Positions 4,883-59,002 of a stretch of DNA of 64,000 nt are shown one piece after another. Under the pieces are notes generated by a model. The model was not told the DNA's origin and did not search any database. It was given only the letters and a program-made list of their open reading frames with translations. The stretch is taken from assembly GCF_964019385.1 (NCBI RefSeq), contig NC_088654.1:4695097-4759096 (forward strand). Direction: 5' to 3'. This DNA comes from Sycon ciliatum (lineage: Eukaryota > Porifera > Calcarea > Leucosolenida > Sycettidae). Position 1 is the first letter of the stretch. Each line of letters starts with the position of its first letter. A program made the translations under genes and the position numbers.

Positions 4883-4885
4883 GAT

Positions 4886-17804: not shown

Positions 17805-17806
<2 letters not shown>

Positions 17807-17848: not shown

Positions 17849-17853
<5 letters not shown>

Positions 17854-31152: not shown

Positions 31153-32604
31153 TCACAGCTCATGGCCACGGTTGTACTGGAGCATGAGCTCCACTTCCAG
31201 GTGGTCTGTCAGTGTTGAGGCTTGCTGGCTACTCGTTGCTGCTTCAAGGAGCGAGAAAACTCTCTCGGCAGCAGCAGATGATGGCGGCACAGTGATGACG
31301 ATCCGGGCAGCATTCTGCCACAGCGGCAGTTGAACTTGGTCTCTCCACCAAGAAAGGCGGTCTTGGCCAGGTTGAGTATCAGCAGCAGCAACCTTGTAGG
31401 CTGCAAGCTCCACCTTGAGCTGTTGGATAGTGCCATCTTTATCCAGGGGCGGAAAGGCACGGAGACCATCAACTAGAGCGGGAACTGGATTCGTCTTGGC
31501 AACGAATATTGGGCAGCACAGCCTGGCAGCCTTGTATGCCAACACATTGGCAAACAGCGGTGAATCCTCATGGTTGAATTTTGTGAGGAAGTAACGAATT
31601 GCCGGACGCACGCAACCATTGGCATGCTCTTTCAACTGGTTCTGGCGGCCAACATCGCCGGGTGCAATGTCCTTCACAAGAGCTTCAACATTGGGGTAGA
31701 CTGCATCTTGGGCAGCAGTAGCCACCTCTTGCAAATGAGTGTATGCATCCACACTCAACATGCCGTCGCCTTCAATGATGTCGGTTTTGCGGACGAATGG
31801 TTCCCCAAAATCAACGGTGGCAGCCAGCTCCATACGAAGCATATCACAGCTGTCAGGTGCCGTTTCGTTTTGCAGGATGGAACGGAGGCGGCGACAGGCA
31901 TTCGGGCTTGATTTACATTCCTCCAAGAAGGGCTGAACATCCCCGAAGTATTTGAGCAGTTGTTCCAGCACTTCCCACAAACTCCACCACCTGGTTGCAC
32001 TGTGAGACTTCGGTGATACACCTGTCCGTGTCTTCCAAGCGAGTTTAGGGGCATGACTGCGAGAGAAGAGACTGACCCACCATTGGCAGAACTCATCCAG
32101 GGCGGGGGTATCAAAGTGGTCTCCAATATTGTTCAAACTGTGGGAAGCGCAAACTACATCCATGGAACTCGGGTACAGCAAGTCTACAACATGCCGCACT
32201 GCAACCTTGTTAACAGATGCGCCATCACGTACGAAGGCAACTGGCCTATTGGCAGGTATCTGAAGGAATGTGCTCAGGCAGGCAATAAGTTCTCTGGCCA
32301 TCTCCGTTCCTCGCATGCTTTTGGCAAGCACATGCATTCTCACCAGGCGTTGCTGGATGCACCATGATGCGTCCACGTAACGAATGATGATGGCGAATGC
32401 CTCGCCAAGATGGGTGGTACCGTCGAAAATTACTGCAACATGTTGTGCTTGCTTGATTTCCTCTTTCAGTTTCCCCATCTCCACCTCAAGCAGGAAGGGA
32501 ACTAGCTGAGCCATATGTGAGCTGTGCGTGAGGTTGAGATTGTTATTAGTAGTTAGTGCGGGGTGGGTTCTGGTGCACTTTTTGACCGTTGACCTTTGGG
32601 CCAA
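31153..32604 (-). CDS. hAT family transposase, N-terminus missing
   Basis: A 483-aa intact minus-strand frame. hAT features in order: AVIFDGTTHLGEAFAIIIRY (first catalytic Asp, residues ~57-76), RPVAFVRDGASVNKVAV (second Asp, ~116-132), VCASHSLNN (C-x2-H, ~150-158), SATRWWSLWEVL (~207-218), and the C-terminal dimerisation domain with WWRDQVQLPLWQ, TVPPSSAAAERVFSLLEAAT and LTDHLEVELMLQYNR. It excises and inserts hAT DNA. The usual N-terminal BED zinc finger is absent; sequence upstream of 32604 is tandem-repeat DNA. The terminal repeat at 30845 lies 0.3 kb beyond the stop. It could be a recent transposase or a domesticated one; one stop-free copy cannot decide. Confidence 0.8.
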   Translation of the reverse strand: MAQRSTVKKCTRTHPALTTNNNLNLTHSSHMAQLVPFLLEVEMGKLKEEIKQAQHVAVIFDGTTHLGEAFAIIIRYVDASWCIQQRLVRMHVLAKSMRGTEMARELIACLSTFLQIPANRPVAFVRDGASVNKVAVRHVVDLLYPSSMDVVCASHSLNNIGDHFDTPALDEFCQWWVSLFSRSHAPKLAWKTRTGVSPKSHSATRWWSLWEVLEQLLKYFGDVQPFLEECKSSPNACRRLRSILQNETAPDSCDMLRMELAATVDFGEPFVRKTDIIEGDGMLSVDAYTHLQEVATAAQDAVYPNVEALVKDIAPGDVGRQNQLKEHANGCVRPAIRYFLTKFNHEDSPLFANVLAYKAARLCCPIFVAKTNPVPALVDGLRAFPPLDKDGTIQQLKVELAAYKVAAADTQPGQDRLSWWRDQVQLPLWQNAARIVITVPPSSAAAERVFSLLEAATSSQQASTLTDHLEVELMLQYNRGHEL

Positions 32605-32750
32605 ATATGGCAGACTGTGTCGGGCTCGTTTGGTCTGGCTCGGGACTCCCCCAGGGTTTGACCTTTGACCTTTGGGTTAAATAAGGCACACTGTGTCGGG
32701 CGCGCTTGGTCTGGCCCCGGGACTCCCCCAGGGTTCGACCTTTGGCCCTG
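32581..32750 (+). repeat. ~76-bp tandem repeat, 2.2 units
   Basis: Units at 32581-32656 and 32657-32733 and a partial unit to 32750, each TTTGACC..TTGACCTTTGGG and CTGTGTCGGGC, ending GGGACTCCCCCAGGG. Confidence 0.85.
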
Positions 32751-32821
32751 CCATGCCATAAATGTCATCATGTTCTTTTCCGTGGCGACCGTGCACTTGT
32801 GCACGTTCGTTGTATTCGCAC

Positions 32822-32852
32822 CAGGGAGTAGTAAAATACGTACTACTCCCTG
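32822..32852. repeat. 12-bp perfect palindrome near Polinton left side
   Basis: CAGGGAGTAGTA-aaatacg-TACTACTCCCTG. It lies 213 bp before the polymerase ATG. AGTAGTA-like sequence is reminiscent of Polinton termini, but the partner end on the right is missing, so this is only a candidate terminus. Confidence 0.4.
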
Positions 32853-33064
32853 ATTTGCACATAGTAGATGTGCAGTGAATGACATATTGCGCATGCGCGC
32901 ATAAGCACGCGGAGTGTGCGACCTTCAGTGGCCCTGCGGAAAAGACGTATACACAAGGTGGACTAGTACACGTGTCATTGTAGGCTGATAGCCGACCTCA
33001 TATACGCTGTACGGGGAGATTATTTCCTCAGTATGTTGTAGGCAGTGCTGGAGGTGACGTGACG

Positions 33065-36000
33065 ATGGCGGAGCCAAGTGCAAAACGATCTAGGCAGCCC
33101 AGACAGCCCACCTCGAGTGCCGTGCGTGGGTTTTTGAAAAAGTTTTCTTTGCCAGGTTCAGGCACTGATCCTCTCGTCTTTTTCAGCAGCCATCATGACG
33201 AGCTCAGACAGGTTCTCCTCGAGGAGCTTCAGTCTCACACTTTCAAGGTGGTTTTAGTTTTGAGGGTGGAGATGACACGAGAGTCGGCCACGGGTAGTAC
33301 GTCTGCCGTCCCGTTTTTTAGAACTAGACCGGCTCGGATCCTCAGCGAAGGGGATATTGATAGTGCAGTCAAGACGATGGTGGCGAGGATCACTGGTCTT
33401 ATTGATAAGTGGATGCAGAACGGATCCAACTGGACCGTTTCTCGAGTGAGACAGCTGGATGTATCGACAGCAAAGTACACTCCTCTTCGAGGTGAGTTTC
33501 TGTTCATCCGGCAGTGTTTGTTCGAAGCCTGTCGAATTTCTTGTGGAAAGTTGTAGATGTATTGTTTTGTACTAGATGTACAGTTTGTCGTGATTGTTGA
33601 GAGGGTGTAGTTGTGATGTGGTGTTACTCTGAGCAAAGCCTTCGTTGTATTTTTGTGGTGTACTGTAGGTGGTGCAGCTGCTATCCCGCCGAAATTAGAA
33701 AAAAAGAAGGCCATCATTAACATAAAGAACAACGATGACAGGTGTTTGATGTGGGCGTTGTTGTCAGCGCTGCACCCCGTCGAACAGAATGCTGAGCATG
33801 CATCCAAGTACACCCAGTATGTGGAGGATCTGCGGTTCGACGGTGTAATGTTCCCTGCAACGCTCCGTGATGTATCCAAAGTGGAGATACAGAATGGTCT
33901 TGCAATCAATGTGTTTGGGTACGAGGGGAATCTGTACCCACTCTATCTCAGCGAGCGACAGGAGACTCCAATCAACCTCCTTCTACATGACAACCACTTC
34001 ACATGGATAAAAAACTTCAGTCGTGCATGTGAGAATAAGAACAAGCGGGCAACACACTACTGCTTGCGATGCCTCTCCGCACACAAAACAGCAGACTCCC
34101 TGCAGCATCACAGCGAGAGATGTCAGGTGATGAAGCCCGTGCCAGTCGTCATGCCCACAGCAAAGGACAGCATCCTCAAATATACAAATTTGAAGCACAG
34201 GATGGTGGCTCCATATATCATTTACGCTGATACGGAGGCCATCATTGAGCCGATGGAGGAACAGCATGGCAGCAGCACTGTACGCACAGCCCGTCATGTA
34301 CCATGCAGCATCAGGTATGTTTTGTTGTTGGTGTTGTTTTTGACTAATGTTTGCTGTACTCATGCCTGCACAGTGCTTCCTGTTATTCCTTCTTGTCTTG
34401 TTCTCCCCTAATTGTGTTCGTGTTGTAGTATGTGCATTTTGTGTGATTCCATTTTTTCAAAAAATCACTCATTCTTACTTTCCTTCTTCTTTTATGCTCT
34501 TGTAGATATGCTGCCATCCGATCCAACGGTGAAGTCCGTGGCGAGTTTGGCGACTGCAGTGAGAATGCCATTCACAACTTTTTCGACAGTCTCAAAGAGT
34601 TGGAAGGCAGTATCCAGGAGGATTTGGCTGATATCAAGCCAATTCGCATGACGGCAGAACTGGAGCTTGAGTTTCAGAACGCAGTCAACTGCTGGATATG
34701 TGATGAAGTACTTGGAGAAGATCGTGTTCGTGATCATGATCATCTCACTGGTAAGTATTATAATTTTTTGTTTATTTTTGTTGTTTTGCAGTTGTGTGTA
34801 GATATGCGCATGATGTGTATAGTGCATTTTCATGTCTTTGTAGCTGTTTGCATCTGTGTTTTATCATGGTGTATTGAATTGTATTGTCTGTGGTATCACC
34901 TTCACTGTAGATGTTTACTATGTTTGTGTATTCCCCTCTTTCTGAATATCTGCACAGACAACTACCGTGGTGCTGCACACTACCAGTGTAATATTCAGCT
35001 AAGTATCTACCCAGATCGCCAGATCATTCCGGTTGTGTTTCACAACCTGAAAGGGTACAATGCTCACCACCTCATCGCCCACATTGGTATGACCGAGGTT
35101 GAAGAGGTGGAGTACGAGGACTCTAACCAGCGTAAGCGGATTAAGAAGGTTGGTGAGATCAGTGTCATCGCCAACAACATGGAGAAATATATTTCATTCA
35201 AGTGGCGTCAGTACCGCTTCATCGACTCCATGGCCTTCTTGAACTCCTCTCTTGACTCGTTGGTGAGCAACATCCCGGAAGATGCGCTCAAGCTTACTCG
35301 TACATTGGCCCATCATGACCTTCTCCTGCGTAAGGGTGTCTACCCCTACGAGTACATGGACTCCTTTGCTCGGTTTGATGAGACACAGCTGCCACCTAAA
35401 TCAGCATTTGAGTCTAGTTTGACTGGAGAAGGTATCAGTGATGCCGACTATGCCCATGCTCAGAACGTATGGCAGGTAAGCAGCTTGTGCCTTCTGTATT
35501 GTGCTCTACTTATGACTTTGAATGCTGTTGTGATGTGCTCTACACATTTTTTTTTGTACTCATTGCTCTCTATCTGTGGATGCTTGTGTGCATGTGTGTA
35601 TGGATGCTTGCGTGTGTGTGTGTGCGTTGTTGTTTAGTTTTTCGTTTTGCAGACATTTGAGTGCAGTACAATGGAGGCCTATCATGACCTCTATTTGCAA
35701 ACAGATGTCTATCTTCTAGCAGAAGTCTTTGAGCATTTCTGCAAGACGGCATACAAGACGTATGGGTTGAATCCAGCCCATTACCTTACTCTCCCAGGTA
35801 TGTTCATCAGTCTTTGTTGTTGTCCAATGTATTCTCTCCTTTAGATGGTGTTCTCTGTTAGTATGCTTGTGCTTTCTTGTCGGTGTATTTATATACTTTT
35901 TGCATGGTGTATTGACTTTCGTGTTTGTGTTCTGGTGTGTTGTATGGTGTTATGTAGGATATGCATGGGATGCTCTACTACGGTTCACCCCGATTGAACT

Positions 36001-37566
36001 GCAGCTGCTCACGGATGTAGACATGCATCTGTTTGTCGAAGCCGGTCTACGTGGGGGCATCTCAATGGCGTCGCAGCGGTACGGCAAGGCCAACAACCCA
36101 ACGATGGATCAGTACAATTCTGCCGAGCCCACATCATACCTGCTATACCTTGATGCCAACAACCTGTATGGCTGGGCTATGTGCCAGAGTATGCCGACAT
36201 CCGAGTTTGCCTGGTGTGACAAGAACCTGTCCGAGATACTGGCACACCCTGTAGATTCGAGCACTGGGTTCATTGTGGAGTGTGATCTTGAGGTACCCTC
36301 TTTGCTGCACCACTACTTCAATGATTATCCACTCGCACCGGAAGTGATGAGAACATTCTCAGATAAGCTATCACCATACCAACAAGCACTTGTGGAGGAG
36401 CTCAAAGTGTCAGCCGTAGATGGAGTCAAGTTGACACCCAGTCTCCTACCCAAGTCCAAGTATGTGTTACACTACTGTACACTGCAGCTGTATTCGCGTC
36501 TGGGCATGATGGTGACCGCTGTTTACAAGGTGTTGGGATTTCAGCAGAGTGCCTGGATGGCCCCCTACATCAATCTGAACACTGCACTTCGCACGAGGGC
36601 TACAACCGACTTTGAGAAGAGCTTTTACAAGGTAAATGCAACCGTTGTGTGCAGTCTTGTATGTTGTTGTTGTTGTTGTTGTTGTTTTTGTCGCATGTAT
36701 GGTGCAAGTGTGACGTGGAGTATGCTAATTGAAAAATATGCTGATGTGAAGGAATGGCATGATATGATTCTCATGTGTCATGTTTGCCTGTTTGTGTGCT
36801 GCGGCTGATGAACAACTCAGTCTTTGGCAAGACGATGGAGAACGTTCGTAATCGAATACGCATCGATCTCTTGCGAGAAGAAAGTGAGGAGCAGGTACTG
36901 AGGGCAGTGAGCAAGCCTACATATGTGCGGCACGACATTTTCCCAAACGGGCTTGTCGGAATAGAAAAGCAGCACACTGAGATCAAGCTCAACAAGCCGG
37001 TCTATGTGGGTATGTCGATACTAGACCTGTCAAAGGTGCACATGTACTCTTTCTATTACGATGTGCTGAAGGAGCAGTACGGTAGCAGAATCCGGCTGTT
37101 GTACACCGACACCGACTCTGTTATTGTGCACATAACCACCGGTGATGTTTATGCAGAGATGGATCTGTCTCTGTATGACACCAGCAACTTTCCCACTGAC
37201 CATCCTCAGTACACTTCTGTCAATAAGAAAGTGGTTGGCAAATTCAAACATGAGCTTGGTGGGAAATCCATGGTGGAGTTTGTAGGTCTAAGATCGAAGA
37301 TGTACTCCTACATCGGGCAGGAATCGGCCAAACGGGCCAAGGGTGTGCGGAAGGCAGTCCTGGCAAATACCATCACCCACAAGGACTATGTAGATGCACT
37401 GCTCAGTCATCGTGTGTCTGCCAGGCCTATGACGGGTCTCCGATCACATTGCCACACAGTGTATGAGGAGGTAACCACCAAGGTGGCATTGTCTCCATTC
37501 GACTGCAAGCGGTATATACTGGATGATGGCATGGCCACACTTGCATATGGTCACAAGGACATTTAA
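33065..37566 (+). CDS. polB: Polinton protein-primed DNA polymerase B, seven exons
   Basis: Replicates the element by protein priming. Exons inferred from splice sites and frame: 33065-33491, 33669-34314, 34506-34750, 34958-35475, 35653-35797, 35958-36631, 36805-37566. Phases match throughout and total 1138 codons plus TAA. The N terminus has an IINIKNNDDRCLMWALLSAL segment typical of Polinton polymerases; exonuclease IIYADTEAI (exon 2); DHDHLT and RGAAHYQCN either side of intron 3; motif A YLDANNLYGWAM (exon 6), motif B LMNNSVFGK (exon 7), motif C YTDTDS (exon 7). Introns are 160-207 bp; five are GT-AG, but intron 6 ends CGG, not CAG. The start is the ATG at 33065. Catalytic residues seen are intact. 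Confidence 0.85.
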
Positions 37567-37771
37567 TGGGCAGGACCCCACATTGAACATGTTTCATCAT
37601 TTTCATGCAAAACTCCCCGCCATTCTTCTGTCTAATATTCCTCCTTTCTTGACGTGTGGAGCTGGCTCCAACACTCTACATTTTTGTTAAATATTTCAGG
37701 CTTGTTCCTCAATTATATTGCAGGATATAGTGCATTGTGCGGTATAATAATCTTCATCGCATCATAAAATA

Positions 37772-38206
37772 TTACCCTACATACTTTGGTTTGCAGTGTG
37801 TGCGCAGCATAGTCCATATATCATCAAATTGATCAAGTTCCGTATCTGCGGGCATATATTTCCCTAGCTTGAGAAAATGCTTATATACTTGCGTAAATTT
37901 ATGCTCACAATGATGACATAAAAATGAGATTAAAGTCCATATGATGGCCAGTATGAATGTAGTTATGATGCTTGTTCTTTCGGCTGGTGAGGTTTGAGTG
38001 GATTTCTCTGCCACCACATTGCTGGCTCCGAACAGCACTGGTGCAAGCAGGAGTAGTTGTTGAGTAAGTTTAACTTTATTCAAACGCCCCTTCACTTTCT
38101 CATAGGTTCCGCTGTTGCTCGCAGTTGATGGCTCGGCTGATGGGGTGTCATTGCTTGAGGAGTCCATCTTGATCTTACTGCACCGGGAATTTTTTCTCAC
38201 ATCCAT
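37772..38206 (-). CDS. Polinton-associated small membrane protein
   Basis: 144 aa, two hydrophobic stretches: LLLLAPVLFGASNVVA (~70-85) and IITTFILAIIWTLISFLC (~99-116), after a Ser/Thr-rich N terminus. Family not recognised. The ATG (38206) overlaps the last codons of the Bcl-2-like gene by 10 bases, a compact virus-like arrangement suggesting one transcription unit. It lies convergent to polB, 205 bp from its stop (37567-37771 holds no gene). Confidence 0.6.
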   Translation of the reverse strand: MDVRKNSRCSKIKMDSSSNDTPSAEPSTASNSGTYEKVKGRLNKVKLTQQLLLLAPVLFGASNVVAEKSTQTSPAERTSIITTFILAIIWTLISFLCHHCEHKFTQVYKHFLKLGKYMPADTELDQFDDIWTMLRTHCKPKYVG

Positions 38207-38751
38207 TCAACCATTAGTATGAGAAAATTTATGGCCAAAAAGGCTGAACGAGGATGAGTCCATACTGAGCGATTTGACCAGTTGAAGTCGTGTGTAAGGG
38301 TGTTTTCAAAACTTTGCCAACCTCCTTTTTCCGCCAACCAGGGTGAAACATTGGTGGTCATGTAATCTAAGTGCCAGGTCATGACATGATGTACATAGTG
38401 CAATCCCAGTTCCGTTGAATTCTCCATACAGATGTTCGCTAACTCGCTGCTGAATAAGTACAGGGCCACAATTTTAACATGGCTGATACCGTTTTTAAAT
38501 AGTTCTTTTGCAAATGTAAGAAATTGCGTACGACCCGTTCTGGAGTTGAAACACAGTTGCCGCATCAGCACCTGAAATCTCGATCCACTGCGCCTGACTA
38601 AGCGACACACTCGTACCAAAACTCTAGAAAGCCGAGATGGTTTCGACTCCGGCGACGATACACATTGTGGTAGGTCTACATGACCTTGTTCTGCCAGTCG
38701 ATCAGCAATAACAGCAGAAGCAGATTTCTTGCAGTAGTCTGCATTGTGCAC
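38197..38751 (-). CDS. Bcl-2-like apoptosis regulator encoded by the Polinton
   Basis: 184 aa. Three Bcl-2 homology-like motifs are in the family order: BH3-like CRLVRRSGSRFQVLMRQL (~48-65), BH1-like ELFKNGISHVKIVALYLFSS (~83-102), and BH2-like SPWLAEKGGWQSFENT (~136-151), whose W...GGW..F core is the hallmark. A hydrophobic tail, SAFLAINFLILMVEWM, at the extreme C terminus would anchor it in mitochondrial or ER membrane. Bcl-2 proteins bind BH3 helices of pro-death partners; presence of BH1-BH2 and a tail anchor suggests a survival-type member, but anti- or pro-death action cannot be told from sequence. It sits between integrase and a membrane protein, same strand, stop overlapping the next ATG. 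The start is the first ATG, 38751. Confidence 0.7.
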   Translation of the reverse strand: MHNADYCKKSASAVIADRLAEQGHVDLPQCVSSPESKPSRLSRVLVRVCRLVRRSGSRFQVLMRQLCFNSRTGRTQFLTFAKELFKNGISHVKIVALYLFSSELANICMENSTELGLHYVHHVMTWHLDYMTTNVSPWLAEKGGWQSFENTLTHDFNWSNRSVWTHPRSAFLAINFLILMVEWM

Positions 38752-38755
38752 TGCA

Positions 38756-39333
38756 TCATCGTTTCCCTATACTACTATCCTTGGAAATATACCTCATTTC
38801 TTTCTGCGATACCCATTGGTTGAACTTTTCGGGGTATCCCTTCCACTTGACCAGCAAACTACCCTCACGTCTTTTCAACACCTTATCGATTCGAAATGTA
38901 GCTTGCTCAGTCTTCATGAGCTGCTGTTTGTAGAAGCTTCCTGTGATGGGTTCATCGGCAAGGTCTTTCACTTTGTAGGTGACCGGATAAGTGGGGAGAA
39001 CCTTACGAATCACAAATACCTCTTCGGTCCAGTTGGGTGTGTATCCCTTCGCAAACATTCTTTTTTCCACTGTAATGCGAACTTTATCTCCGACTTGAAA
39101 GACAGGCTCATCCGCAATGGGCTCATACAGTTGCTCAATCGGTTTTCCTAGGGAGGCTTCCATGGGGGTCATCCCAATTGTACGGTGTTTTCTATTGTTG
39201 TAGTTGTCGACAAGTTTTTGCAGCACATCGATGTAGACGTTGGTCGAGCGAGCGGTGAAGTGCTTCCACATACGAGATTTTAGCGTTCTGTTGAAACGTT
39301 CAACGACGACGGCTTTTCCTTCATTCTCTGTAC
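38756..39333 (-). pseudogene. Polinton integrase, C-terminal part with chromodomain
   Basis: Downstream half of the integrase gene, separated from its core by the gypsy element at 39334. Just below the insertion the minus strand reads VVERFNRTLK near 39290, carrying the third acidic catalytic residue. Then VDNYNNRKHRTIGMTPMEA (~39150-39210), an SH3-like segment (FQVGDKVRITVEKRMF), and a chromodomain (FRIDKVLKRREGSLLVKWKG, then YPEKFNQWV) before the stop at 38756. Chromodomains are found in many Polinton integrases and may direct insertion to modified histones. The Bcl-2-like gene follows after 4 bp. Confidence 0.85.
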
Positions 39334-39515
39334 TGTAACAGGTTTAATCAAACTTGAAAAGTAAGAGGCCTGGTTGAGCGTGCCTCGACCAGTTATATGC
39401 AAAATGTGATAGTATACATGTGGCAATGGCGCCAATGAAGGTGCTAATAGACAGGCGTAAGACGCATGAGGTGCGAGGGAGTGTAAAGTTATAGAGAACA
39501 GGGAAAACTGTTACA
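39334..39515 (-). repeat. Gypsy 3' LTR
   Basis: 182 bp, TGTAACAG...CTGTTACA. The adjoining minus-strand purine-rich tract (AGGAGGGGATGA at 39516-39527) is the likely polypurine primer. Confidence 0.95.
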
Positions 39516-39707
39516 TCATCCCCTCCTATGGAGAGGAAGGAGCTTATAACCCAAATGCTCAAGTGGAATAGAGTACAATAAGCGCAAACACGTGCGAGAC
39601 GAAAAAAGGCTTGAAGTAACACAATAAGACGACTGAAACTCCATGCAAATAAAGTGTAATAAGCTCAACAAATGTGTAAGGTGAAACTAGAAGTTCAACT
39701 GCAAAAC

Positions 39708-40259
39708 TCAGCGGGCAGAAGCCAAGGTTTTGTACTTCTGAAGTGGAACAATGTCATTACCAGATTCATCCAACAAATAATGTTCAGGCTCCCAAGTGGC
39801 ATCAGAGTAGCCTTGCCACTTGACTAGGTACTGAAGCTGATTCTGCCGGCGGCGGTGACTGAGAATGTTCTCCACCACATAGCGGGCATGACCATCAAGG
39901 TCCGTGATAGGCGGAGGCGTAGGCTGTCTCCTATTAGGAATAGCGTTCTTCTCGTAGGCACGGAGTGCCGACACATTAAATACCGGGTGACAGCGGCTGG
40001 TATGAGGCAACTTGAGCTTGTAGGCATTCGGGCCGACCACATGGGTTATAGGAAAGGGGCCAAACCACTTGGGGCGTAATTTATGGGATGGTCGGTCCCG
40101 AGCTTCAGGAGTCAGGAGGAAATCCCGGTAGACCATTACCAAATCTCCCACCTTCAGCTTTCCCTCGACCCTTGTCCGATCTGCATAGAAGGCCTGACGA
40201 GCTTGAGCTGCCACTAGCGCATCTTGTGAGATCTTGACCGCGTCTTGTCTTGCTTGCAA
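39708..40259 (-). CDS. Gypsy integrase C-terminal region with chromodomain
   Basis: 183 codons in a different frame from pol, overlapping its end (40214-40259). It includes a KVGDLVMVYRDF SH3-like segment, KLRPKWFGPFPI, SRCHPVFNVSALRAY and a chromodomain (RYVVENILSHRRRQNQLQYL, then VKWQGYSDATWEPE). In relatives this is continuous with integrase, so a one-base shift near 40240-40300 separates them, by mutation or assembly error. Confidence 0.85.
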   Translation of the reverse strand: MQARQDAVKISQDALVAAQARQAFYADRTRVEGKLKVGDLVMVYRDFLLTPEARDRPSHKLRPKWFGPFPITHVVGPNAYKLKLPHTSRCHPVFNVSALRAYEKNAIPNRRQPTPPPITDLDGHARYVVENILSHRRRQNQLQYLVKWQGYSDATWEPEHYLLDESGNDIVPLQKYKTLASAR

Positions 40260-43200
40260 CCAATCAGCTGAATCTCTGCCTCCTGAATAGGGTTGAGGAA
40301 GTCGGGTGGCGCTCTGGGATTTAGACCGTAATTTAAGAAGAACGGTGTGTTTCCTGTAGATGATTGAGTAGCGCTGTTGATAGAAAACTCACAGAGAGGT
40401 AGGAGCATATCCCAGTTATCTTGTTTATGATTTACAAAAGCCCTCAGCACATCCTCTACTATTCTGTTTACTCGTTCAGTTAGGCCATCTGTCTGAGGGT
40501 GATTGGCAGTACTAAATGCTAGTTTCGTTCCTAAGCGATCAAACAATTCCTGAAAAAATGCTGCCGTAAATCTTGGATCACGATCACATACAATACTAGA
40601 ACTCAAACCATGAAGTCGAAATACATGTTGAATATACAGATCAGCACTTCCTTTAGCGTCAATAGTAGAGGAAGTAGGTGCTAAATGTACACACTTTGTC
40701 AAGCGGTCTACAAATACATATATAGCATCATGACCTTTGTCGGTCCTAGGCAAACCCATGATAAAATCCATCGAGATATCTGCCCACGGCTGACTGGGCA
40801 CTGGTAAATTCTGCAAGAGACCAGTTTTTAGCTGGCCGCCTTTAACTCGTTGGCAGACGTCACATGACTTGACAAAGGCCTTTACATCCAGTCCCATTCT
40901 GGGCCAATAGAAATATCTAGAGAGTCTGAAATAGGTGCGATCTCGACCGGGATGCCCCGCAGTCACACAGTCATGGTATTCTTGAAGCAGGGCGAGTCGG
41001 AGTTTGCTACTCTTTGGAATGCATAACCGGTTCTGTGGTGAAGATCTGAGATAAAGATAACCGGGTGTTTCATTTAGAAGGTAACGGTCGTGCAGATTGT
41101 CATGGCTTGAATTTTTCAGTCTCCTGATAATGGGAGCAAGATCCTTGTCGCACTTGTAACCGCTGACAATTAACTGCGCTAAGTCTGGATTAATCTCTAG
41201 GGTATGCTCTATGGCATTCAACTGAATGTTAGGAGGATAGGATGACCCGCCTATTTCAGAATCACTGAACAGATCTGGACGGCGTGAAAGCGGGTCGGCA
41301 ATGTTTTTCTTTCCTGGTTTGTGAAAGACCGTAAAGTCATAGTCAGCTAAAAACTCTACCCATCTTGCCTCACGCTTGGTGAGAGTCGGTTTGGTTCGTA
41401 AATAGACAACACCCATATTATCAGTCATCAGGTCAAAGTGGCGGAATAGATAGATTCTCCAGCACTTTAATGCAAATACCACAGCCAACGTTTCCCTCTC
41501 GGCCGCAGTATAGTTGCGTTCTGCAGCTGACAGTTTCCGACTACAATAGGCTACGGGATGCAAATCCATATCTTCTCCCTGCTGCAGGAGCACACCCGCC
41601 ACTGCAAAGTCACTTGCGTCAGTTTCTACCATGAAGCTTTTCTCAACATCGGCCAGTTGCAACACTGGCGCCTCGAGTAATGCTGATTTTAGAGACTCAA
41701 ATGCCTTCTGTCTAGCAGCGCTCCATTCAAAGCGTGAATTTTTTCCGGTGATTTCTTCTAATGGACGAGAGATGGTCGAGTGTCGATCTATGAACCTTCG
41801 GAAATAGTTTGCAAAGCCAAGAAACTTCCTCACATCAGTTACTGACGACGGAGTTGGCCATGTTTCCACAGCACTTATCTTCTTGGGATCAGGGGAAATT
41901 GATGTGCCGTTGATTTTATGCCCCAAGAAGAGAACTTCTCTCACGCCGAATTCGCATTTAGACTGTTTGCAATACAGCTCACTATTTCTAAGTGTTTCTA
42001 GAACTGTTTGAAGATGATGCTGATGTTCTTCCCAGGTCTTGCTGAAAACTAGAATGTCATCCAAGAATACTACAACGAATTTTCGGAGATGCGGTTGCAG
42101 AATAGAGTTCATGAGAGACTGAAAGGTGGCCGGGGCATTAGTCAGCCCGAATCCCATGACTCTAAATTGGAAGTGGCCGAACGGCGTATTAATGGCCGTC
42201 TTAGAAACATCCGAGTCTTGAATTCTGATTTGATTGTAGCCTGACCGCAAGTCCAACTTGGAGAAATATGCACTGCCCTGGATCGTGTCGAATAAGTCAT
42301 CAATATTAGGAAGACAAGCTTTGTTTTTGATCGTAATTCTATTCAATTCTCGCCAATCGCACACCATTCTCAGAGTACCATCCGACTTTTTCACAAAAAA
42401 CACAGGTGCACCGTATGGCGACTTACTTGGCTCAATGAATCCCTTCTCAAGTAATTCTGATAGCTGTGACTGGAGCTCGTCCATCTCTGGTTTCGGCAGG
42501 CGGTAGGCGGGTCGAGACGGTGGTCTGGCTCCATCTTCTATCTGGATTTCATGGTCGACTGGTCTCTTCGGTGGAAGCTCATTCGGCAGCTCGTCTGGAA
42601 ATAAATCCTGGTACCTCTTGAGCAGGTTCTGGATGTCTTGTTGCTCTGATTCCTGGAGTTGTGGCCCGGAACGATTCTCCTCGTTTGCAGCAGTGACCCA
42701 TGCAAGAAACCCCTCGGCTCCACTCCTCAGGGCATGACGAGCTTGTCGGCCACTGATAAACATGCTTTCCACAGATGGCCGGTCGGCTGTCGGCGGGTTA
42801 GCTGAAGGCAATTTGGCAACAAAGGGCTCACCGTCCAACTGAACTTCGTTCGTACGGAAGTTGATGCTGGGGTTGTTCCTTGTAAGCCACGGCTTGCCAA
42901 GAATAGCGTCGTAGCGAGTCAGGGGATACACAGTAAAGTGCTGTTCCTCACTGAAGCCCCCGACTGTCACCCTTAGCGTGCGTGTGGAAATCTGCGGGAC
43001 CTCGCTGGTCGAGCCGTCCGCCAATGTTACGCTCAGCACTGCTGAGCTTGCATCCGTGTCAAGATGATGCTTTCGAACAAAACTGTCTGCAATGAAGTCA
43101 TGCGTCGAACCGGAATCTATCAGCATCACTGCACGGCGACCGCCGATCTTTCCCTGTATGCGCAGTAGGTCGTGTTCAGGTTCATTGCCGACGCTGACGT

Positions 43201-43360
43201 TGCTGACATGACACCTTTCTGCAACGGGACAATTTCCTACAGCTATGGGTGTCTCCGGCTCCGTAGGTTCCTGGAGAGCAACGTCTTCAACCTCCAGAGC
43301 TCCGAACCGGTTAGCGACTGGTACCGGCGTGGGTGCTTCGGTCGTCGCCAGTAAGCGCAC
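40214..43360 (-). CDS. pol: Gypsy Pol: protease, RT, RNase H, integrase
   Basis: 1048 codons. Order: aspartic protease (MLIDSGSTHDFIADSFV, ~79-95), RT (MVCDWRELNRITIKNKACLP; FSKLDLRSGYNQIRI; catalytic VVFLDDILVFSKT near residue 430), RNase H (MVETDASDFAVAGVLLQQ), integrase zinc domain (HPGRDRTYFRLSRYFYW, then CDVCQRVKGG), and DDE core (DISMDFIMGLP; SIVCDRDPRFTAAFF; QTDGLTERVNRIVEDVL). It synthesises and inserts the element's cDNA. It overlaps the end of gag in another frame, so translation by frameshifting near 43365 is likely. It ends early in a frameshifted tail (QDKTRSRSHKMR). Confidence 0.95.
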   Translation of the reverse strand: MRLLATTEAPTPVPVANRFGALEVEDVALQEPTEPETPIAVGNCPVAERCHVSNVSVGNEPEHDLLRIQGKIGGRRAVMLIDSGSTHDFIADSFVRKHHLDTDASSAVLSVTLADGSTSEVPQISTRTLRVTVGGFSEEQHFTVYPLTRYDAILGKPWLTRNNPSINFRTNEVQLDGEPFVAKLPSANPPTADRPSVESMFISGRQARHALRSGAEGFLAWVTAANEENRSGPQLQESEQQDIQNLLKRYQDLFPDELPNELPPKRPVDHEIQIEDGARPPSRPAYRLPKPEMDELQSQLSELLEKGFIEPSKSPYGAPVFFVKKSDGTLRMVCDWRELNRITIKNKACLPNIDDLFDTIQGSAYFSKLDLRSGYNQIRIQDSDVSKTAINTPFGHFQFRVMGFGLTNAPATFQSLMNSILQPHLRKFVVVFLDDILVFSKTWEEHQHHLQTVLETLRNSELYCKQSKCEFGVREVLFLGHKINGTSISPDPKKISAVETWPTPSSVTDVRKFLGFANYFRRFIDRHSTISRPLEEITGKNSRFEWSAARQKAFESLKSALLEAPVLQLADVEKSFMVETDASDFAVAGVLLQQGEDMDLHPVAYCSRKLSAAERNYTAAERETLAVVFALKCWRIYLFRHFDLMTDNMGVVYLRTKPTLTKREARWVEFLADYDFTVFHKPGKKNIADPLSRRPDLFSDSEIGGSSYPPNIQLNAIEHTLEINPDLAQLIVSGYKCDKDLAPIIRRLKNSSHDNLHDRYLLNETPGYLYLRSSPQNRLCIPKSSKLRLALLQEYHDCVTAGHPGRDRTYFRLSRYFYWPRMGLDVKAFVKSCDVCQRVKGGQLKTGLLQNLPVPSQPWADISMDFIMGLPRTDKGHDAIYVFVDRLTKCVHLAPTSSTIDAKGSADLYIQHVFRLHGLSSSIVCDRDPRFTAAFFQELFDRLGTKLAFSTANHPQTDGLTERVNRIVEDVLRAFVNHKQDNWDMLLPLCEFSINSATQSSTGNTPFFLNYGLNPRAPPDFLNPIQEAEIQLIGCKQDKTRSRSHKMR

Positions 43361-43368
43361 CCCCTTTC

Positions 43369-43638
43369 TTACTGGCGACCAGCGTTTGGGTAGCGCTGTC
43401 CACCGTCAGTACAGTCTTTAGCGAGGTGGCCTGGCTTCCTGCAAGCAAAGCAGTGTCCCATTGCTCGCAGTTGGACACGCTCTTGGTCCGTCAGCTTGCG
43501 GAGGCCCTGACCACGGAAGCTGGGCACGGAACGCGACTCTCTACTGGCTGGTGGCCCCGACGCCGGTGGCCCTGACGACTGCTCCACGGTGTTTGCTGCC
43601 ATGACAGCTTGCTCCAGGGTACGTGGATGCTCACGCAT
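43369..43638 (-). CDS. gag: Gypsy Gag, C-terminal part with zinc knuckle
   Basis: Frame with CCHC zinc knuckle CFACRKPGHLAKDC (near 43410-43455), which binds genomic RNA. It belongs with 43662-44207; the two are separated by a frameshift near 43660-43730. The open frame actually extends upstream of the first ATG (43638). Confidence 0.8.
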   Translation of the reverse strand: MREHPRTLEQAVMAANTVEQSSGPPASGPPASRESRSVPSFRGQGLRKLTDQERVQLRAMGHCFACRKPGHLAKDCTDGGQRYPNAGRQ

Positions 43639-43661
43639 GACCTGTCGCTGGATGTGCGGAA

Positions 43662-44207
43662 CTAGACCCCTGACGAACAGCAGCGCTCTGGTGTGGTGGT
43701 CGATTTCCGCACTTGCAGGCTGAGGCGAGTGAAAGCAGCAATGTATGCGTCCAGCGACCCGCGCTGTGCTGCGGAAATTAGTCCCATACGCGATGTTTCC
43801 TCGTTGTGCCGTGGTCCGTACACATCGCCAAGTGCCGCTTTCAGAGCAGGCCAGTCGGAAAACACTTGGTTAGCTTCCAATGCCGATATCAACCAAAGAC
43901 GAGCGTTTCCAGTCAAAAATCCTGCCGCGTAGTCGACCCTCTGTGCCGCATTTGGGAGTGCCAACGACCGTAGGGCCATGTCCATTGCAAACGTCCATTC
44001 TTTGAATGTAGCGGAATCTCCTCCAAACACAGGCGGCTCTTTCGTAAGGCGGGGTGTTGGCTCCCACGGTTCTGAGTTCGGATGTATCGTTCGGTTTCCT
44101 TGGCTAACGCGCTGAGCGGTCTTGATATCGTTTATCAGCCGAACGACGAGTACGAGGAGCGTAAGCAGAGCGACCAGAACACCTGCCAAAAGCAGAGTAG
44201 GAACCAT
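43662..44207 (-). CDS. gag: Gypsy Gag, N-terminal part with hydrophobic leader
   Basis: 181 codons. Capsid-like region EPPVFGGDSATFKEWTFAMD and FLTGNARLWLISALE. Unusually it begins with a strongly hydrophobic stretch (TLLLAGVLVALLTLLVLVVR, residues 3-22) that looks like a membrane anchor. The ATG (44205-44207) lies inside the primer-binding site. It ends in a frameshifted tail ERCCSSGV. Confidence 0.8.
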   Translation of the reverse strand: MVPTLLLAGVLVALLTLLVLVVRLINDIKTAQRVSQGNRTIHPNSEPWEPTPRLTKEPPVFGGDSATFKEWTFAMDMALRSLALPNAAQRVDYAAGFLTGNARLWLISALEANQVFSDWPALKAALGDVYGPRHNEETSRMGLISAAQRGSLDAYIAAFTRLSLQVRKSTTTPERCCSSGV

Positions 44208-44219
44208 CCTCTGCTACCA
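44202..44219 (-). promoter_or_regulatory. Primer-binding site, initiator tRNA-Met
   Basis: Minus strand TGGTAGCAGAGGATGGTT, one base after the 5' LTR, complementary to the conserved 3' end of eukaryotic initiator tRNA-Met over all 18 bases. Confidence 0.9.
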
Positions 44220-44220
44220 G

Positions 44221-44403
44221 TGTAACAGGTTTAATCAAACTTGAAAAGTAAGAGGCCTGGTTGAGCGTGCCTCGACCAGTTATATGCAAAATGTGATAGT
44301 ATACATGTGGCAATGGCGCCAATGAAGGTGCTAATAGACAGGCGTAAGACGCATGAGGTGCGAGGGAGTGTAAAGTTATAGAGAACAGGGGAAAACTGTT
44401 ACA
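44221..44403 (-). repeat. Gypsy 5' LTR
   Basis: 183 bp, identical to 39334-39515 except for one extra G. It contains promoter and polyadenylation functions by position. Confidence 0.95.
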
Positions 44404-45238
44404 TGTACTGTACATGTGAATGTCGTTTTTCTTCAACCACTCCTTGAACGTTTTGTTATAAAATTCCGAGCCATGGTCCACCAATAGTAGCTTAGGTTTC
44501 CGATTGGTTGTGATGGTTTTAAAGGCTGAGACAACACTGTCCCCGGTTTTTTCTTATAAGTGGCACACTCCAAGCATACTTCGTGTATATGTCTATAACA
44601 TTGAGAATATATCTAATTCCTTCGTTATATTCGCTAAAGGGCTGCATTTCTACGAGATCAGCACTCCATACATCGTCCTTGCCGTAAACGTCCACTTTTC
44701 TGCGTGGGAAATGTACTCGCTTAGGTTTATGTAGCTCATCGGCAAGATCATCTTGCCAATCCCCACCAACCATGACTTGATCGTTGTGAAGGGTATCGTG
44801 AGAGAACGTACAGGAGAGGAATTCCAATACTCCGTCTATACCAGTCTTTGAGAAGACTTTCGCTACCAGGATGGCATAACGTCCGCAGACCGCTGTGCTT
44901 CTATCTTGAATGACTTGCGTATTGGTGTACAGGTTACAGCCGGAATAAACATTAAGAAAACATTGTTTTAGTTCTGGTTCTTTATAGTCTTCGGCCATCT
45001 GCATCAATGCACGCCCGAAGCTGTCAAATATCAGAACATTATCGCCTTCCCTACACACCGTCAGCCAATGGTGTCCCCCTTCGGGTTTGTCCAGTATCGG
45101 GAGTATGTTGTCCGTGTTACACACACAAAACTCGCCATGGTTTAAGGCAGGCAGGAGATCGTAGCTAGTCACACCTCGGAACCCGCGAATGTGTTTCAGC
45201 GCAGACTCTATGTCCACGTTGCTCAGCTCCACATCCAT
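44404..45238 (-). pseudogene. Adenain-type protease fused in frame to Polinton integrase core
   Basis: One frame starting MDVELSNVDIESALKHIRGF (45238). Protease part: GGHHWLTV (catalytic His), FDSFGRAL (acidic residue), VIQDRSTAVCGRYAI (Gln and nucleophile Cys); it would cleave virion precursor proteins. With no stop the frame continues via DELHKPKRVHFPRRKV into the integrase core: DVWSADLVEMQPFSEYN (first catalytic Asp) and GIRYILNVIDIYTKYAW. A shift in an A-run near 44545 ends the frame at 44519; integrase continues in another frame with VDHGSEFYNKTFKEWL (second Asp, 44440-44484) up to the gypsy insertion. The integrase end is at 38756-39333. Confidence 0.8.
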
Positions 45239-45240
45239 AC

Positions 45241-46290
45241 CTAGTATACCAGGGATTTTCCTTTCAGAATAGCAAGTGTTCGGTAATAGGGACTCCTTGT
45301 ATTGCTAGCCACTTGCCGATTCTTGAAGACACTTTTGATAAAGGTGGCATCATCAACCATGTGCTCTTTGAGACCTAACATAAATTGTTCTGCGTTGATA
45401 AGTTTTGCTTCTTTGGTTCGAGTGTAGGCGTTGATCATATCTCCTATACCGGAATATTTGTCTGCGGATCCTGGTATGGCTAGAAGCTGAGTTCTTATTG
45501 CAGCCAATTTCACATTACTCCTCGAGTGGTTTGGAAGCGCATCAAGGTTGGCTGCTGCTGCAATCTGCTGGAATGGATAACGCGACAGGTGAAACTGATT
45601 GATTTGGTTGACCAGAGTAGCATAGTCTTTGAGGATTTGAAATTCGAGATTATCTCTAGTGTTTTCCATTCTACCTCTGAGCCCCTGCTCATCCTCCTGA
45701 TAGACTTGGTGTAGTTGCGGCCTTGCACTGAAGTGGCTGCTTTGCAGAAAGGCTTCCGGTATCTTATGGTCTACTAGAAGTTTACCAAATGTATTTATCA
45801 CTATTCTATCAAACTTTGGCTCCATGGCGGTTTGCAGTGGGATACTAGCGGCAGAGATGTTTCTCCTCCTTCTAGCCTCTGGTATGGACCCTCTTGCCAT
45901 TCCAGAACTCTGATCATAATCGAGGAGATTCGATGCAACAGCATTAGTAACCGAGGATGGGTTTATCAGATCCGGATTGTTCTTAAATGTTCTATCATAC
46001 ATAGCCTTTACTCGAGGGTTTGATTTCACTTGGGAGATAGGAAATGGGCGATCTTCTTCGGGGATATAGGCCAGTGCTTCTCTCACTTGCCCGGAAAATG
46101 TCTTATAATCTCCACCTCGTACTGGAGGAGTACCTTGAACCTCCCACATGGTGTCACCTTTACTCAGGATATCCTGGGGGTTTTGTAATATCATCTTCAT
46201 GGTCTCGTCTCTCTTCTCTGGTGGTATTGGGTGAGTACGGCCGTTGCACTCGATGCAGATAGGTTGGAAGTGCACCCGTATTCGCTCCAT
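45241..46290 (-). CDS. Polinton-associated 349-aa protein, unrecognised
   Basis: Intact 349-codon frame between the ATPase and the protease-integrase, ending 2 bp before the latter's ATG. The N terminus has CIECNGRTHPIPPEK (possible metal-binding pair); the middle is helical and Gln/Asn-rich (LVNQINQFHLSRYPFQQIAA); no membrane segment. By position it could be a virion or assembly protein. I recognise no motif that proves this. Confidence 0.65.
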   Translation of the reverse strand: MERIRVHFQPICIECNGRTHPIPPEKRDETMKMILQNPQDILSKGDTMWEVQGTPPVRGGDYKTFSGQVREALAYIPEEDRPFPISQVKSNPRVKAMYDRTFKNNPDLINPSSVTNAVASNLLDYDQSSGMARGSIPEARRRRNISAASIPLQTAMEPKFDRIVINTFGKLLVDHKIPEAFLQSSHFSARPQLHQVYQEDEQGLRGRMENTRDNLEFQILKDYATLVNQINQFHLSRYPFQQIAAAANLDALPNHSRSNVKLAAIRTQLLAIPGSADKYSGIGDMINAYTRTKEAKLINAEQFMLGLKEHMVDDATFIKSVFKNRQVASNTRSPYYRTLAILKGKSLVY

Positions 46291-46305
46291 TTCTGTACAA
46301 CGGGC

Positions 46306-47206
46306 TTAATCAATCTCATCCACTCCTACCCCCCGTGCTTCACAGCCAGCAATCCACTCAAAACTATCAACTTCGGATTCGATTTGGACAATTAGTTTTA
46401 CTCTAGGGAATGTGACCTCCCAGGTGTCTCCAATCTTAGTGACGGTAACCACATCCCACTCACTGTGGGTGGGTATAATGCGAACACTGACACCATCCAT
46501 ACTTACTATAGGCAGAAAATACACAACCTTCGAGGTTATGGAATCACAGTGAGTATAAAACTCATTGCGTGATGCATCGACCGCTAGAAAGGGTCTCCAA
46601 CAAGCTTCTAATAGTTTTTCATAGAGTTTATAGACAAGATTAGCTTTCAAACAGGATCCGCCAAATAAAGTATGAAGATAGCGTTTGATGTTGGATTTAT
46701 CTGTAAAGCGAAAAAGATAGAGGAAGTTGGTATTTATCTTCATATCTTTGATGTTATCAAAGCTTTGAGAGAGAAAGAACACATTAAGTTCATAATGATG
46801 GCTATACATGGTGAAAAACTTGTAAAGACATTCCCTCTGACTGCCATGCTTCAGTCCCATGACACGTATATCATCTATAATGACAAAGGACTTGGGCTGA
46901 ATGTCCGTCTCTTCGATACACTCAGGCATTGCACTGTAATGTTTAAACTCCGTGCCTTCCTGCCTGTTGCTCCGGTGAAGTATTGGAGATGACGTAAAGT
47001 CGTTCCGGCTTTACTTCTCGAAGTATTTCCTTGAGGTAATGGGATTTCCCCATGCTGCTCTGACCCAGAAATAGCACATTTTGTCCCCATGTTTGGAGGG
47101 AGAGGAGAATCTCAGAGTACTTGGGTTGAGATCGTAGAGACAGACCTGCTACGCGGAGTAAAGAGGCAGATCCTCCTTTCAGAGACAGCAGTGATGAAAA
47201 GTCCAT
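46306..47206 (-). pseudogene. Genome-packaging ATPase (FtsK/HerA type), frameshifted
   Basis: Two adjoining frames. 46943-47206 has the Walker A loop LFLGQSSMGKSHYLKEIL (near 47025-47075). 46306-46929 has Walker B KSFVIIDDIRVMG (near 46860-46895), then FFLSQSFDNIKD, a sensor-like segment. ATPases of this type pump DNA into capsids of Polinton-like and other double-jelly-roll viruses. A one-base shift near 46960-46980 separates the halves. The stop is 15 bp before the 349-aa gene. Confidence 0.8.
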
Positions 47207-47227
47207 ACTTACTATAACGAGAAAAAA

Positions 47228-47347
47228 TTAAATGTTAAAGCTCTGAGGTATAAACGAAGGGTTATGGGTATTTTCGATGCGAGTTCGGATACGGTCAGTA
47301 ATGGTTTCTGGAGGGTTTGAGGATCGTCGTCTTCTACCTCTCTTCAT
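47228..47347 (-). CDS. Short basic peptide
   Basis: 39 aa, starting MKRGRRRRSSNPPETITDRI. The Arg-rich N terminus recalls small DNA-condensing virion peptides, but it may be the remnant of a longer gene: the ATG is 6 bp from the T-run at 47353 that ends the Polinton. Confidence 0.35.
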   Translation of the reverse strand: MKRGRRRRSSNPPETITDRIRTRIENTHNPSFIPQSFNI

Positions 47348-47348
47348 A

Positions 47349-47352
<4 letters not shown>

Positions 47353-49815: not shown

Positions 49816-49830
49816 CCTTTTCCTTTCTAC

Positions 49831-50255
49831 TTAAATAAATTTCTGTTTTATTTATTTATTATGGATTCCCCAAAGGCCGAGGCCTAAGTCGAGGGGGTCT
49901 CCGTTCATGGCTTACGGGGAATATATCTGCAAAATTATAACATTATAGATTGAGAAGAGGAAGGGTTATAACAAATGCGTACTGTAGAAATCAGCCATAA
50001 CATTCGTTACTATGTTACAGAAACTCTGAAAGGAATTAAACCAGTGGGTTCAAAGCGTGTGTTGGCAAAGATGGTACGAACGCGAGACACAAAGCAATGA
50101 CTATTTTGGGTGATTCTAATGTCAGTGGGGAGAGAATTCCAGGTGACAGCGGTAACAAAGAGGAATTGATGGTTGCAAAGTTTGCCCAGCAGCGTAGTAT
50201 CACTTTCGCTCATAAAATCTAAAATATGGTGGAAACAGAGCTGTATGGAGTTGAT
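49831..50255 (-). mobile_element. 5'-truncated LINE 3' end (copy B)
   Basis: Virtually identical to 4318-4742, including the coding fragment at 50010-50213 and the TAAA-repeat tail. Confidence 0.6.
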
Positions 50256-50258
50256 TTT

Positions 50259-50395
50259 ATTCCCGTAGCTATGCAGAAGACGTTACTTCAGTAACGTCTG
50301 GCGCTAGCCAGGGTCCACACAGCTTTAATTCCCGTAGCTATGCAGAAGACGTTACTTCAGTAACGTCTGGCGCTAGCCAGGGTCCACACAGCTTT
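50259..50395 (+). repeat. Two tandem 69-bp units (copy B)
   Basis: Units at 50259 and 50328, same hairpin as 4746-4882. Confidence 0.85.
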
Positions 50396-50398
50396 GAT

Positions 50399-51915
50399 TT
50401 GGTATTTGTTTGTTTGTGTGTTTGTTTGTTTGTTTGTGTCACGCCTGGCGCTATCCCGTATCTGACGGCAAAAAATCATAGGGATGTTATAAATTTTTCA
50501 ATTCTCCTATTTTTTTTTAAGGCATATCCTGGGATTCGAACCCGCACTATCGCCCTACATGCATTCCCCCATACACTTCGCATTCATACCCATTCATCCA
50601 AGTTGCTTCACGTTATGATCTTGCGTTTGAAAGCCGTATTTGAATATTGCGGGCAGCTGTATGTGGCCAGCGGTGTTTGATGGTACGGTACGGGAGACGG
50701 TGTCGTATTACCCTCGATCGTACCTGTCCCGTACCTATCCCTACCGTACCGTACCAGCAAAGACGGCTGGCCACAATGCATATTCAAATAGGGCTTTCAA
50801 ATGCAAGATCATTATGTGAAGCAACTTGGAAGAATTAGTATGTATGCGAAGTGTATCGGGGGATGCATGCAGGGCGCGATAGTGCGGGTTCGAATCCCAG
50901 GTTATGTCTTAAAGAAAAAGGAATTTTTTAAAGACCGGGGATGCATGCAGGGCGCGATAGTGCGGGTTTGAATCCCAGGTTATGTCTTTAAAAAAAGGAA
51001 TTTTTTAAAGACCGGGGGATGCATGCAGGGCGCGATAGTGCGGGTTCGAATCCCAGGTTATGTCTTTTAACAAAAAGGAATTTTTCAAAGACCGGGGGAT
51101 GCATGCAGGGCGCGATAGTGCGGGTTCGAACCCCAGGTTATGTCTTAAAAAAGAATTTTTCAAAGACCGGGGGATGCATGCAGGGCGCGATAGTGCGGGT
51201 TCGAATCCCAGGTTATGTTTTTACAAAAAACGAATTTTTTAAAGAATTTATAACATCCCTATGCTTTTGTTTGTCTAGGTCATCAAGGCAAAAAAGCAAA
51301 GCGTAGGGCCCTGAGCTTCCAAGCTCTCTAGTTTGGTATTTGTTTGTTTGTGTGTTTGTTTGTGTCACGCCTGGCGCTATCCGTATCTGACGGCAAAAAA
51401 GCTTAGGATGTTATAAATTTTTCAATTCTCCTATTTTTTTTCAGGAATATCCTGGGATTCGAACCCGCACTATCGCCCTACATGCATTCCCCCATACACT
51501 TCGCATTCAGACCCATTCTTCCAAGTTGCTTCACGTTATTATCTTGCGTTTGAAAGCCCTATTTGAATATTGGGGGCAGCTAGACGGTGTCGTATTACCC
51601 TCGATCATACCTGTCCCGTGCCTATCCCCTACCGTACCGTGCCATCAAAGACGGCTGGCCACAATGCATATTCAAATAGGGCTTTCAAATGCAAGATCAC
51701 AATGTAAACAACTGGGAAGAATTAGTATGTATGCGAAGTGTATCGGGGGATGCATGCAGGGCGCGCGATAGTGCGGGTTCGAATCCCAGGTTATGTCCAA
51801 AAAAAAAGGATTTTTTTAAAGAATTTATAACATCCCTATGCTTTTTTTTGTCTAGGTCATCAAGGCAAAAAGCATAGCGTAGGGCCCTGAGCTTCCAAGC
51901 TCTCTCGTTTGCCAA
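50399..51915. repeat. tRNA-like fold-back repeat block (copy B)
   Basis: Same organisation as 4886-6402, with the five tandem T-arm-bearing units at 50857-51217. Confidence 0.65.
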
Positions 51916-51979
51916 TATTCTTTGGAGAGCGAGTGACGCCGCTTGGTCATGGCTGTCAGCTTCGGCTGGCCCATGGGTA

Positions 51980-58936: not shown

Positions 58937-59002
<66 letters not shown>

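Follow-up and report, generated by a model that had tools for sequence, protein, structure and literature searches.

A Bcl-2 gene carried by a family of Polinton elements in the calcareous sponge Sycon ciliatum

Why would a Polinton, an integrating virus-like element, carry a gene of the Bcl-2 family? The question is raised by a 64,000-nucleotide stretch of the Sycon ciliatum genome (NC_088654.1, positions 4,695,097 to 4,759,096; hereafter the window), in which a 184-codon open reading frame (ORF) listed at 38197-38751 on the minus strand lies between an integrase gene and a small membrane-protein gene, TM144, of a Polinton/Maverick element. An original prediction, made from the sequence of the window, had read this ORF as a death-suppressing Bcl-2 homologue carried as element cargo. 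From its homology, its linkage to the element across the genome and the variation among its copies, we consider it likely that a Polinton lineage captured a host Bcl-2 gene and kept it as a selected accessory gene with a pro-survival function of the viral type.

The gene and its place in the element

The ORF matches the Pfam Bcl-2 profile PF00452 with 57.7 bits against a cut-off of 31.4 (E 1.9e-15), over ORF residues 51-145 and positions 8-100 of the 100 in the profile, and a chance ORF is therefore ruled out; the near-identical protein of an intact sibling copy, P0001 (ENA), scores 57.4 bits. The best relative by sequence among solved structures is 6wgz_B (E 9.1e-10), by its title HyBcl-2-4 with a HyBak1 BH3 peptide. 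The predicted structure of the Polinton protein is the helical Bcl-2 fold and matches solved Bcl-2 structures, with HyBcl-2-4 of Hydra (6wgz; query TM-score 0.72) and trBcl-2L2 of Trichoplax (6yld; 0.70) as the top Foldseek matches. The BH motifs originally read in the ORF held up unevenly: BH2 is clear, the stretch SPWLAEKGGWQSF being present and WLAEKGGWQSF aligning with the BH2 of the solved proteins, and BH1 and BH3 are recognisable by alignment but degenerate. The cores of the latter two vary among accepted Bcl-2 members, and judged from such comparison membership in the family therefore stands, with the mechanism of the BH3-binding groove less sure. The C-terminal hydrophobic stretch is present as predicted, its 15-residue hydropathy mean reaching 2.58 in P0001 and 1.98 in the window copy; it is short and of low model confidence.

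The start of the gene had to be revised. The listed ORF begins with GTG and has its first methionine codon at residue 63, whereas P0001 and the intact siblings open with ATG, and comparison with P0001 shows that the window copy is read in a disrupted frame over its first ~13 codons. This small defect produces both the GTG start and the 4 bases that seem to separate the ORF from the integrase: in sibling L024 the Bcl-2 start lies inside the integrase stop codon, a one-base overlap. Downstream, the ORF does overlap the membrane-protein ORF (37772-38206) by 10 bases, as first read, and L024 keeps this overlap. Such overlapping packing of integrase, Bcl-2 gene and TM144 is virus-like. The window copy thus reads:

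38197-38718, minus strand: Bcl-2 homologue in the family frame (sibling protein residues 14-186), from the PF00452 match (E 1.9e-15) and sibling comparison
38719-38751, minus strand: frame-disrupted N-terminal stretch of the listed ORF, its GTG no real start; siblings differ here and begin with ATG

Is the gene part of the element or a host gene that happens to lie beside it? Our searches of the sponge's own genome covered 538 Mb in 313 contigs, and 150 of 394 integrase candidates were scored, 36 of them at 96-100% identity (the window's own family) and 114 at 64% or less (sister families). Within this scored set a Bcl-2 match lies downstream of every own-family integrase (36 of 36), in 32 cases at 35 bp, and a host gene beside an element is ruled out by this linkage. 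The PF00452 search returned 43 matches, comprising the 36 element copies and seven host-type loci (one below cut-off). A search with the Bcl-2 protein returned 41 matches, and four matches are unlinked to an integrase, three of them host genes (on C5, C3 and C13) and the fourth a fragment on C8. Counting 35 fetched loci and the window, 33 of the 36 copies have an unbroken frame for a 186-aa protein, which begins MQCTMQ; the frame is broken in the window copy, in L027, where an insertion splits the gene, and in the degraded L028. The C8 fragment (L016, C8:35032280-35032669) is a lone 3' piece of the Polinton gene beside an 821-aa reverse-transcriptase-like ORF.

Of the three outcomes that would have spoken against the original prediction, none was observed: the profile hit is significant, the predicted structure is the Bcl-2 fold, and the gene occupies the same position beside all 36 own-family integrases. 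The reading as element cargo is borne out by the overlapping neighbours, by the ends of a sibling element and by the junctions of sister families. In the one element examined for its ends, on C4, terminal inverted repeats of 426 bp (99.8% identical) with AGTAGT/ACTACT ends are flanked on both sides by the 6-bp duplication CTTCTG; AGT-repeat ends of this kind are described for vertebrate Mavericks in an excerpt of PMC8097293. In the Bcl-2 family, the gap between the integrase and the facing gene that we call PolB (the names PolB, capsid, penton and ATPase come from gene order and motifs) could be measured at 34 of 36 junctions and spans 1,184-3,522 bp in 33 of them, most at 1,196, and 5,899 bp in one. 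We examined 19 of the 114 sister-family integrases, a non-random set of the 15 ranked highest plus four others for which PolB rows were listed; with 145 of 462 PolB candidates scored, seven of the 19 had no PolB row. At all 12 measurable sister junctions the gap is 138-468 bp, with no room for Bcl-2, and the one sister junction that was read, in the closest sister (L053, 64%), holds no Bcl-2 or TM144 ORF. On the IMG/VR contig L054, PolB-like and integrase-like ORFs (the latter label being our reading) face each other with a 15-base overlap and no gene between. Because the measured sister junctions and L054 leave no room for it, the Bcl-2 and TM144 cassette is probably a derived insertion, judging by this comparison of gene orders; its loss from the sister families is less likely.

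L054 was the one contig found by an IMG/VR scan with PolB. With the C-terminus of the integrase, scanning gave a single weak match, L052 (39% over residues 15-51), and scans of IMG/VR with the Bcl-2 protein, a Bcl-2 alignment, the capsid-like ORF and the fused protease-integrase confirmed no relative.

Origin of the captured gene

Where did the gene come from? A profile search returned two EukProt proteins with identifiers in the scpid/scgid style of Sycon ciliatum: P0002, which bears the name Apoptosis regulator Bcl-2, and P0003, which bears the name BAK. They are 98% and 97% identical to ORFs at L015 and L018 of the sponge's own genome. The protein searches yielded four Bcl-2 proteins in all. 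The nearest host gene is L015/P0002 on C5, with 47% identity to the Polinton protein over 157 residues, compared with 33% for the BAK-like P0003; this nearness rests on pairwise identity and on rank in the own-genome search. Four further host-type loci (C4:1311896, C4:27156977, C13:8417051 and C3:41284213) are unlikely to hold a closer donor, because none is among the matches of the Bcl-2 protein search. The host BAK-like gene occurs twice in near-identical form, at C3:41304035 and C13:27761312 (L017, L018), by recent duplication or as an assembly effect.

For all its likeness, L015 differs from the Polinton gene in its C-terminal tail and in an intron, and the 9.9 kb around it contain no Polinton gene. 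The intron (GT-AG) follows directly after GGW: coding stops at GTGAGT and resumes past CATGCAG with SSFE. The Polinton gene reads GGWQSFENTL straight through. In mouse Bcl-2 genes, according to an excerpt of PMC8998228, the membrane anchor lies on an exon separate from the BH motifs. Since the Polinton gene lacks the host GGW intron, capture probably went through a processed mRNA, as far as gene structure can tell; loss of the intron later, inside the element, is less likely. The direction of transfer here appears to be from host to element.

What the protein may do

We propose the following model for the acquisition and use of the gene. A sponge Polinton lineage would have captured a host Bcl-2 gene, with processed mRNA as the probable route, and the captured gene would have come to lie, together with TM144, where the ends of the integrase and PolB genes face each other. 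Under selection the element would have retained it as it spread to 36 or more places. The hydrophobic tail would hold the protein to a membrane, the protein would bind and restrain a sponge BAK-type effector, and a cell with a replicating element would be spared early death. The presence of an intact gene in dozens of copies suggests that the element may keep its cells from dying, and the product is most likely a virus-type pro-survival Bcl-2 protein; its membrane anchoring, BAK binding, anti-apoptotic activity and use in an infectious cycle are what we infer. Restraint of BAK is the most likely action because the protein has a Bcl-2 fold kept by apparent selection, carries a hydrophobic tail, has no canonical BH3 core of its own and finds its nearest counterparts in pro-survival proteins that bind BAK BH3.

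Some features speak against such a function, and they are those that would favour a Bcl-2 fold with a non-apoptotic task, for example the restraint of autophagy or of innate signalling, as some poxvirus Bcl-2-fold proteins have non-apoptotic roles. Alignment finds neither the canonical BH1 core (NWGR) nor the canonical BH3 core (Gly-Asp) in the Polinton protein, which has SHVK and VCRL instead; the nearest host gene has THGK and MCRQ at these places. To judge from the motif, the replacement of NWGR by SHVK places a genuine reservation on BAK restraint, and a comparable loss of the BH1 glycine is read as altered function in an excerpt of PMC8998228. Against a non-apoptotic task stand the well-kept BH2, the clear sequence similarity to pro-survival proteins and the retained hydrophobic tail, and we regard it as unlikely.

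Could the gene instead be a passive passenger, captured without use and intact merely through the youth of its copies? The copies are indeed young: the 33 intact genes fall into 15 haplotypes with a mean difference of 0.38%, and two copies are 99.93% identical over 2,952 bp at the capsid end. Their codon variants, however, comprise 10 nonsynonymous changes over 434 sites and nine synonymous changes over 124 sites, a ratio of nonsynonymous to synonymous polymorphism (pN/pS) of 0.32, and this nonsynonymous deficit has a one-sided binomial p of 0.0135 in a test that ignores copy relatedness and mutation bias. For comparison genes we kept only copies with a full-length, ungapped, stop-free match and a fetched stretch spanning the gene. 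The ratio is 0.42 for the protease-integrase (13 copies, p 0.019) and 0.32 for the ATPase-like gene (11 copies, p 0.027); it is not significant for ORF349 (0.57, 11 copies, p 0.11) or TM144 (0.61, 26 copies, p 0.23). With this deficit, a frame that has stayed open despite divergence to 47% identity from the host gene, and the tight overlap with the neighbours, a mere passenger is decidedly improbable.

A BAK-like death gene aiding particle release late in replication would fit the fold, which is common to BAX and BAK, and the host BAK-like protein is 33% identical. The Polinton protein is closest to the host protein named Bcl-2, at 47%, and lacks the canonical BH3 core that BAK needs, which leaves this alternative very improbable. 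That a host gene came to lie next to an element by chance, or through an assembly error, could be entertained from nothing beyond the single window, and is refuted by the 36 linked copies on many contigs, to which are added the terminal repeats and target-site duplication around one sibling element.

A selected pro-survival gene in so many copies could also bear on the sponge itself. With 36 Polinton copies as against the seven host-type Bcl-2 loci found, the element genes may determine how readily the sponge's own cells die, through protection of the cells in which the element replicates and integrates. This would make Polintons agents that change apoptosis in one of the animal groups that branched off earliest; we offer it as a speculation that is rather doubtful. 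If it holds, a sponge would allow tests of apoptosis as a defence against viruses and of the viral answer to it.

The Polinton family and known systems

The element in the window is a remnant, interrupted within its integrase gene and truncated on the right:

32548-47352, unstranded: Polinton remnant, left end intact, right side lost after the ATPase-like gene; alignment to sibling elements, with one large break
32548-32979, unstranded: left terminal inverted repeat, starting AGTAGT; matches the C4 sibling (L048) at its end with 92%
33653-37566, plus strand: PolB-like gene in several blocks with intron-like stretches between; successive blocks are up to 41% identical to an ORF of 1286 aa on L054
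37772-38206, minus strand: TM144, a 144-aa ORF with one strong hydrophobic segment by hydropathy; the same gene adjoins sibling Bcl-2 copies
38756-39271, minus strand: integrase C-terminal part with a weak chromo-domain match (Chromo 5.1e-5, below cut-off); family of copies
39338-44403, minus strand: insertion of ~5 kb inside the integrase gene, a Ty3/gypsy-like retrotransposon judged from its ORFs; alignment break against siblings
44519-45238, minus strand: putative adenovirus-type protease and integrase N-terminal part, a single 468-aa ORF in siblings; Peptidase_C5 21.7 bits against 21.3
45241-46290, minus strand: ORF349, 349 aa with no assigned role, conserved in siblings by comparison
46306-47206, minus strand: packaging-ATPase-like gene split into two ORFs, from motif and order; a 231-aa ORF with GxxxxGKS in sibling L024

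Sibling elements carry the PolB-like gene on one strand and, on the other, TM144, the Bcl-2 gene, the fused 468-aa protease-integrase, ORF349, the ATPase-like ORF, an ORF for a basic protein of 255 aa and a capsid-like one of at least 454 aa. Farther out come a penton-like and a collagen-type ORF and one whose match to the TFIIB zinc ribbon is very weak. Pfam matches above cut-off are confined to rve (5.5e-11 for the retrovirus-type integrase of sibling L011), collagen and, by 0.4 bits, the protease piece of the window; the sibling protease, at 20.5 bits, lies just under cut-off. The PolB-like pieces of the window have no Pfam polymerase match, and we take the label, that of the protein-primed polymerase of Polintons, from gene order and a YTDTDS motif. 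Likewise, the 207-aa piece of the ATPase-like gene has no Pfam match, and the capsid-like ORF of the siblings, a candidate double jelly-roll capsid gene that is absent from the truncated window copy, has no Pfam match and PDB matches at chance level only.

Several further observations concern the family and its surroundings. A single ORF joins the protease (Peptidase_C5-like) to the integrase (rve, weak chromo) at L024:5190-6596 and L011:5311-6714, both minus. The PolB-like gene (window 33653-37566, L011, L024) shows four to five intron-like gaps of ~76-220 bp against an uninterrupted relative, and several sister-family PolB rows are open frames of more than 1,100 codons. At the capsid end of L048 lie the collagen-repeat gene, possibly a fibre (4082-4900 minus; PF01391 6.4e-16), and the zinc-ribbon ORF (3254-3919 plus; E 0.077). 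Seventeen facing PolB pairs stand ~4-6 kb apart (for example C6:868743(+)/874873(-), C5:19097470(+)/19102945(-) and C8:6822319(+)/6828228(-)); they are 97-99% identical to the PolB of the Bcl-2 family, with remains of the end of TM144, riddled with stops, alongside and no integrase or Bcl-2 row between them, and by their arrangement are probably palindromic, non-autonomous derivatives. In the window, long direct repeats of ~98% identity and up to 8.9 kb flank the element region (13955-22830 with 55096-64000; 4305-7890 with 49818-53403).

What is the relevance of the captured gene? Bcl-2 proteins encoded by viruses are already known, and the literature searched, with Starrett 2021 and the coral polintovirus paper outside its scope, contains no report of a sponge Polinton with such a gene. 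Excerpts of PMC6431247, PMC11071296, PMC10812802, PMC8097293, PMC11071308, PMC11252502 and PMC6505742 describe no Bcl-2 gene in a Polinton; the term match in the PMC11252502 excerpt is the program bcl2fastq, and the mentions of Polinton and Bcl-2 in that of PMC6505742 are separate. The origin of the Bcl-2 family is called obscure, and a proposed horizontal transfer is mentioned, in an excerpt of PMC8998228; Bcl-2-bearing Polintons offer a concrete vehicle for horizontal transfer of such genes. The history of the capture can be read here from sister-family junctions that lack the gene, from a host lineage as donor and from the missing intron. If our model holds, integrating virus-like elements would have gained from blocking apoptosis in an animal lineage that branched off early, and cell death in sponges may serve to defend against viruses.

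Viral Bcl-2 homologues occur in gammaherpesviruses, adenovirus (E1B-19K), an asfarvirus and poxviruses, and are known mainly from vertebrate viruses. The Polinton gene resembles them as a short, intron-less, host-type Bcl-2 fold with a hydrophobic tail in a DNA virus-like genome; here, the carrier is an integrating sponge Polinton, the closest relative is a sponge gene, and the function is predicted from sequence. HyBcl-2-4 and trBcl-2L2, by their titles solved with BAK BH3 peptides, are cellular genes of other phyla, 24-27% identical to the Polinton protein in the Foldseek alignments. Adintoviruses, with PolB, integrase and an adenovirus-type protease, belong to the same broad class as the sponge element, in which PolB and protease are putative, and an excerpt of PMC11071296 mentions anti-apoptotic accessory homologues for mammal-associated species, without the term 'Bcl'; here, the host is a sponge, the gene a PF00452 member and the junction defined. 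Giant planarian Burro retrotransposons likewise bring a BCL2-like motif onto an invertebrate mobile element (excerpt of PMC6431247), as part of a retrotransposon polyprotein, whereas in Sycon ciliatum it is a separate gene of a DNA element.
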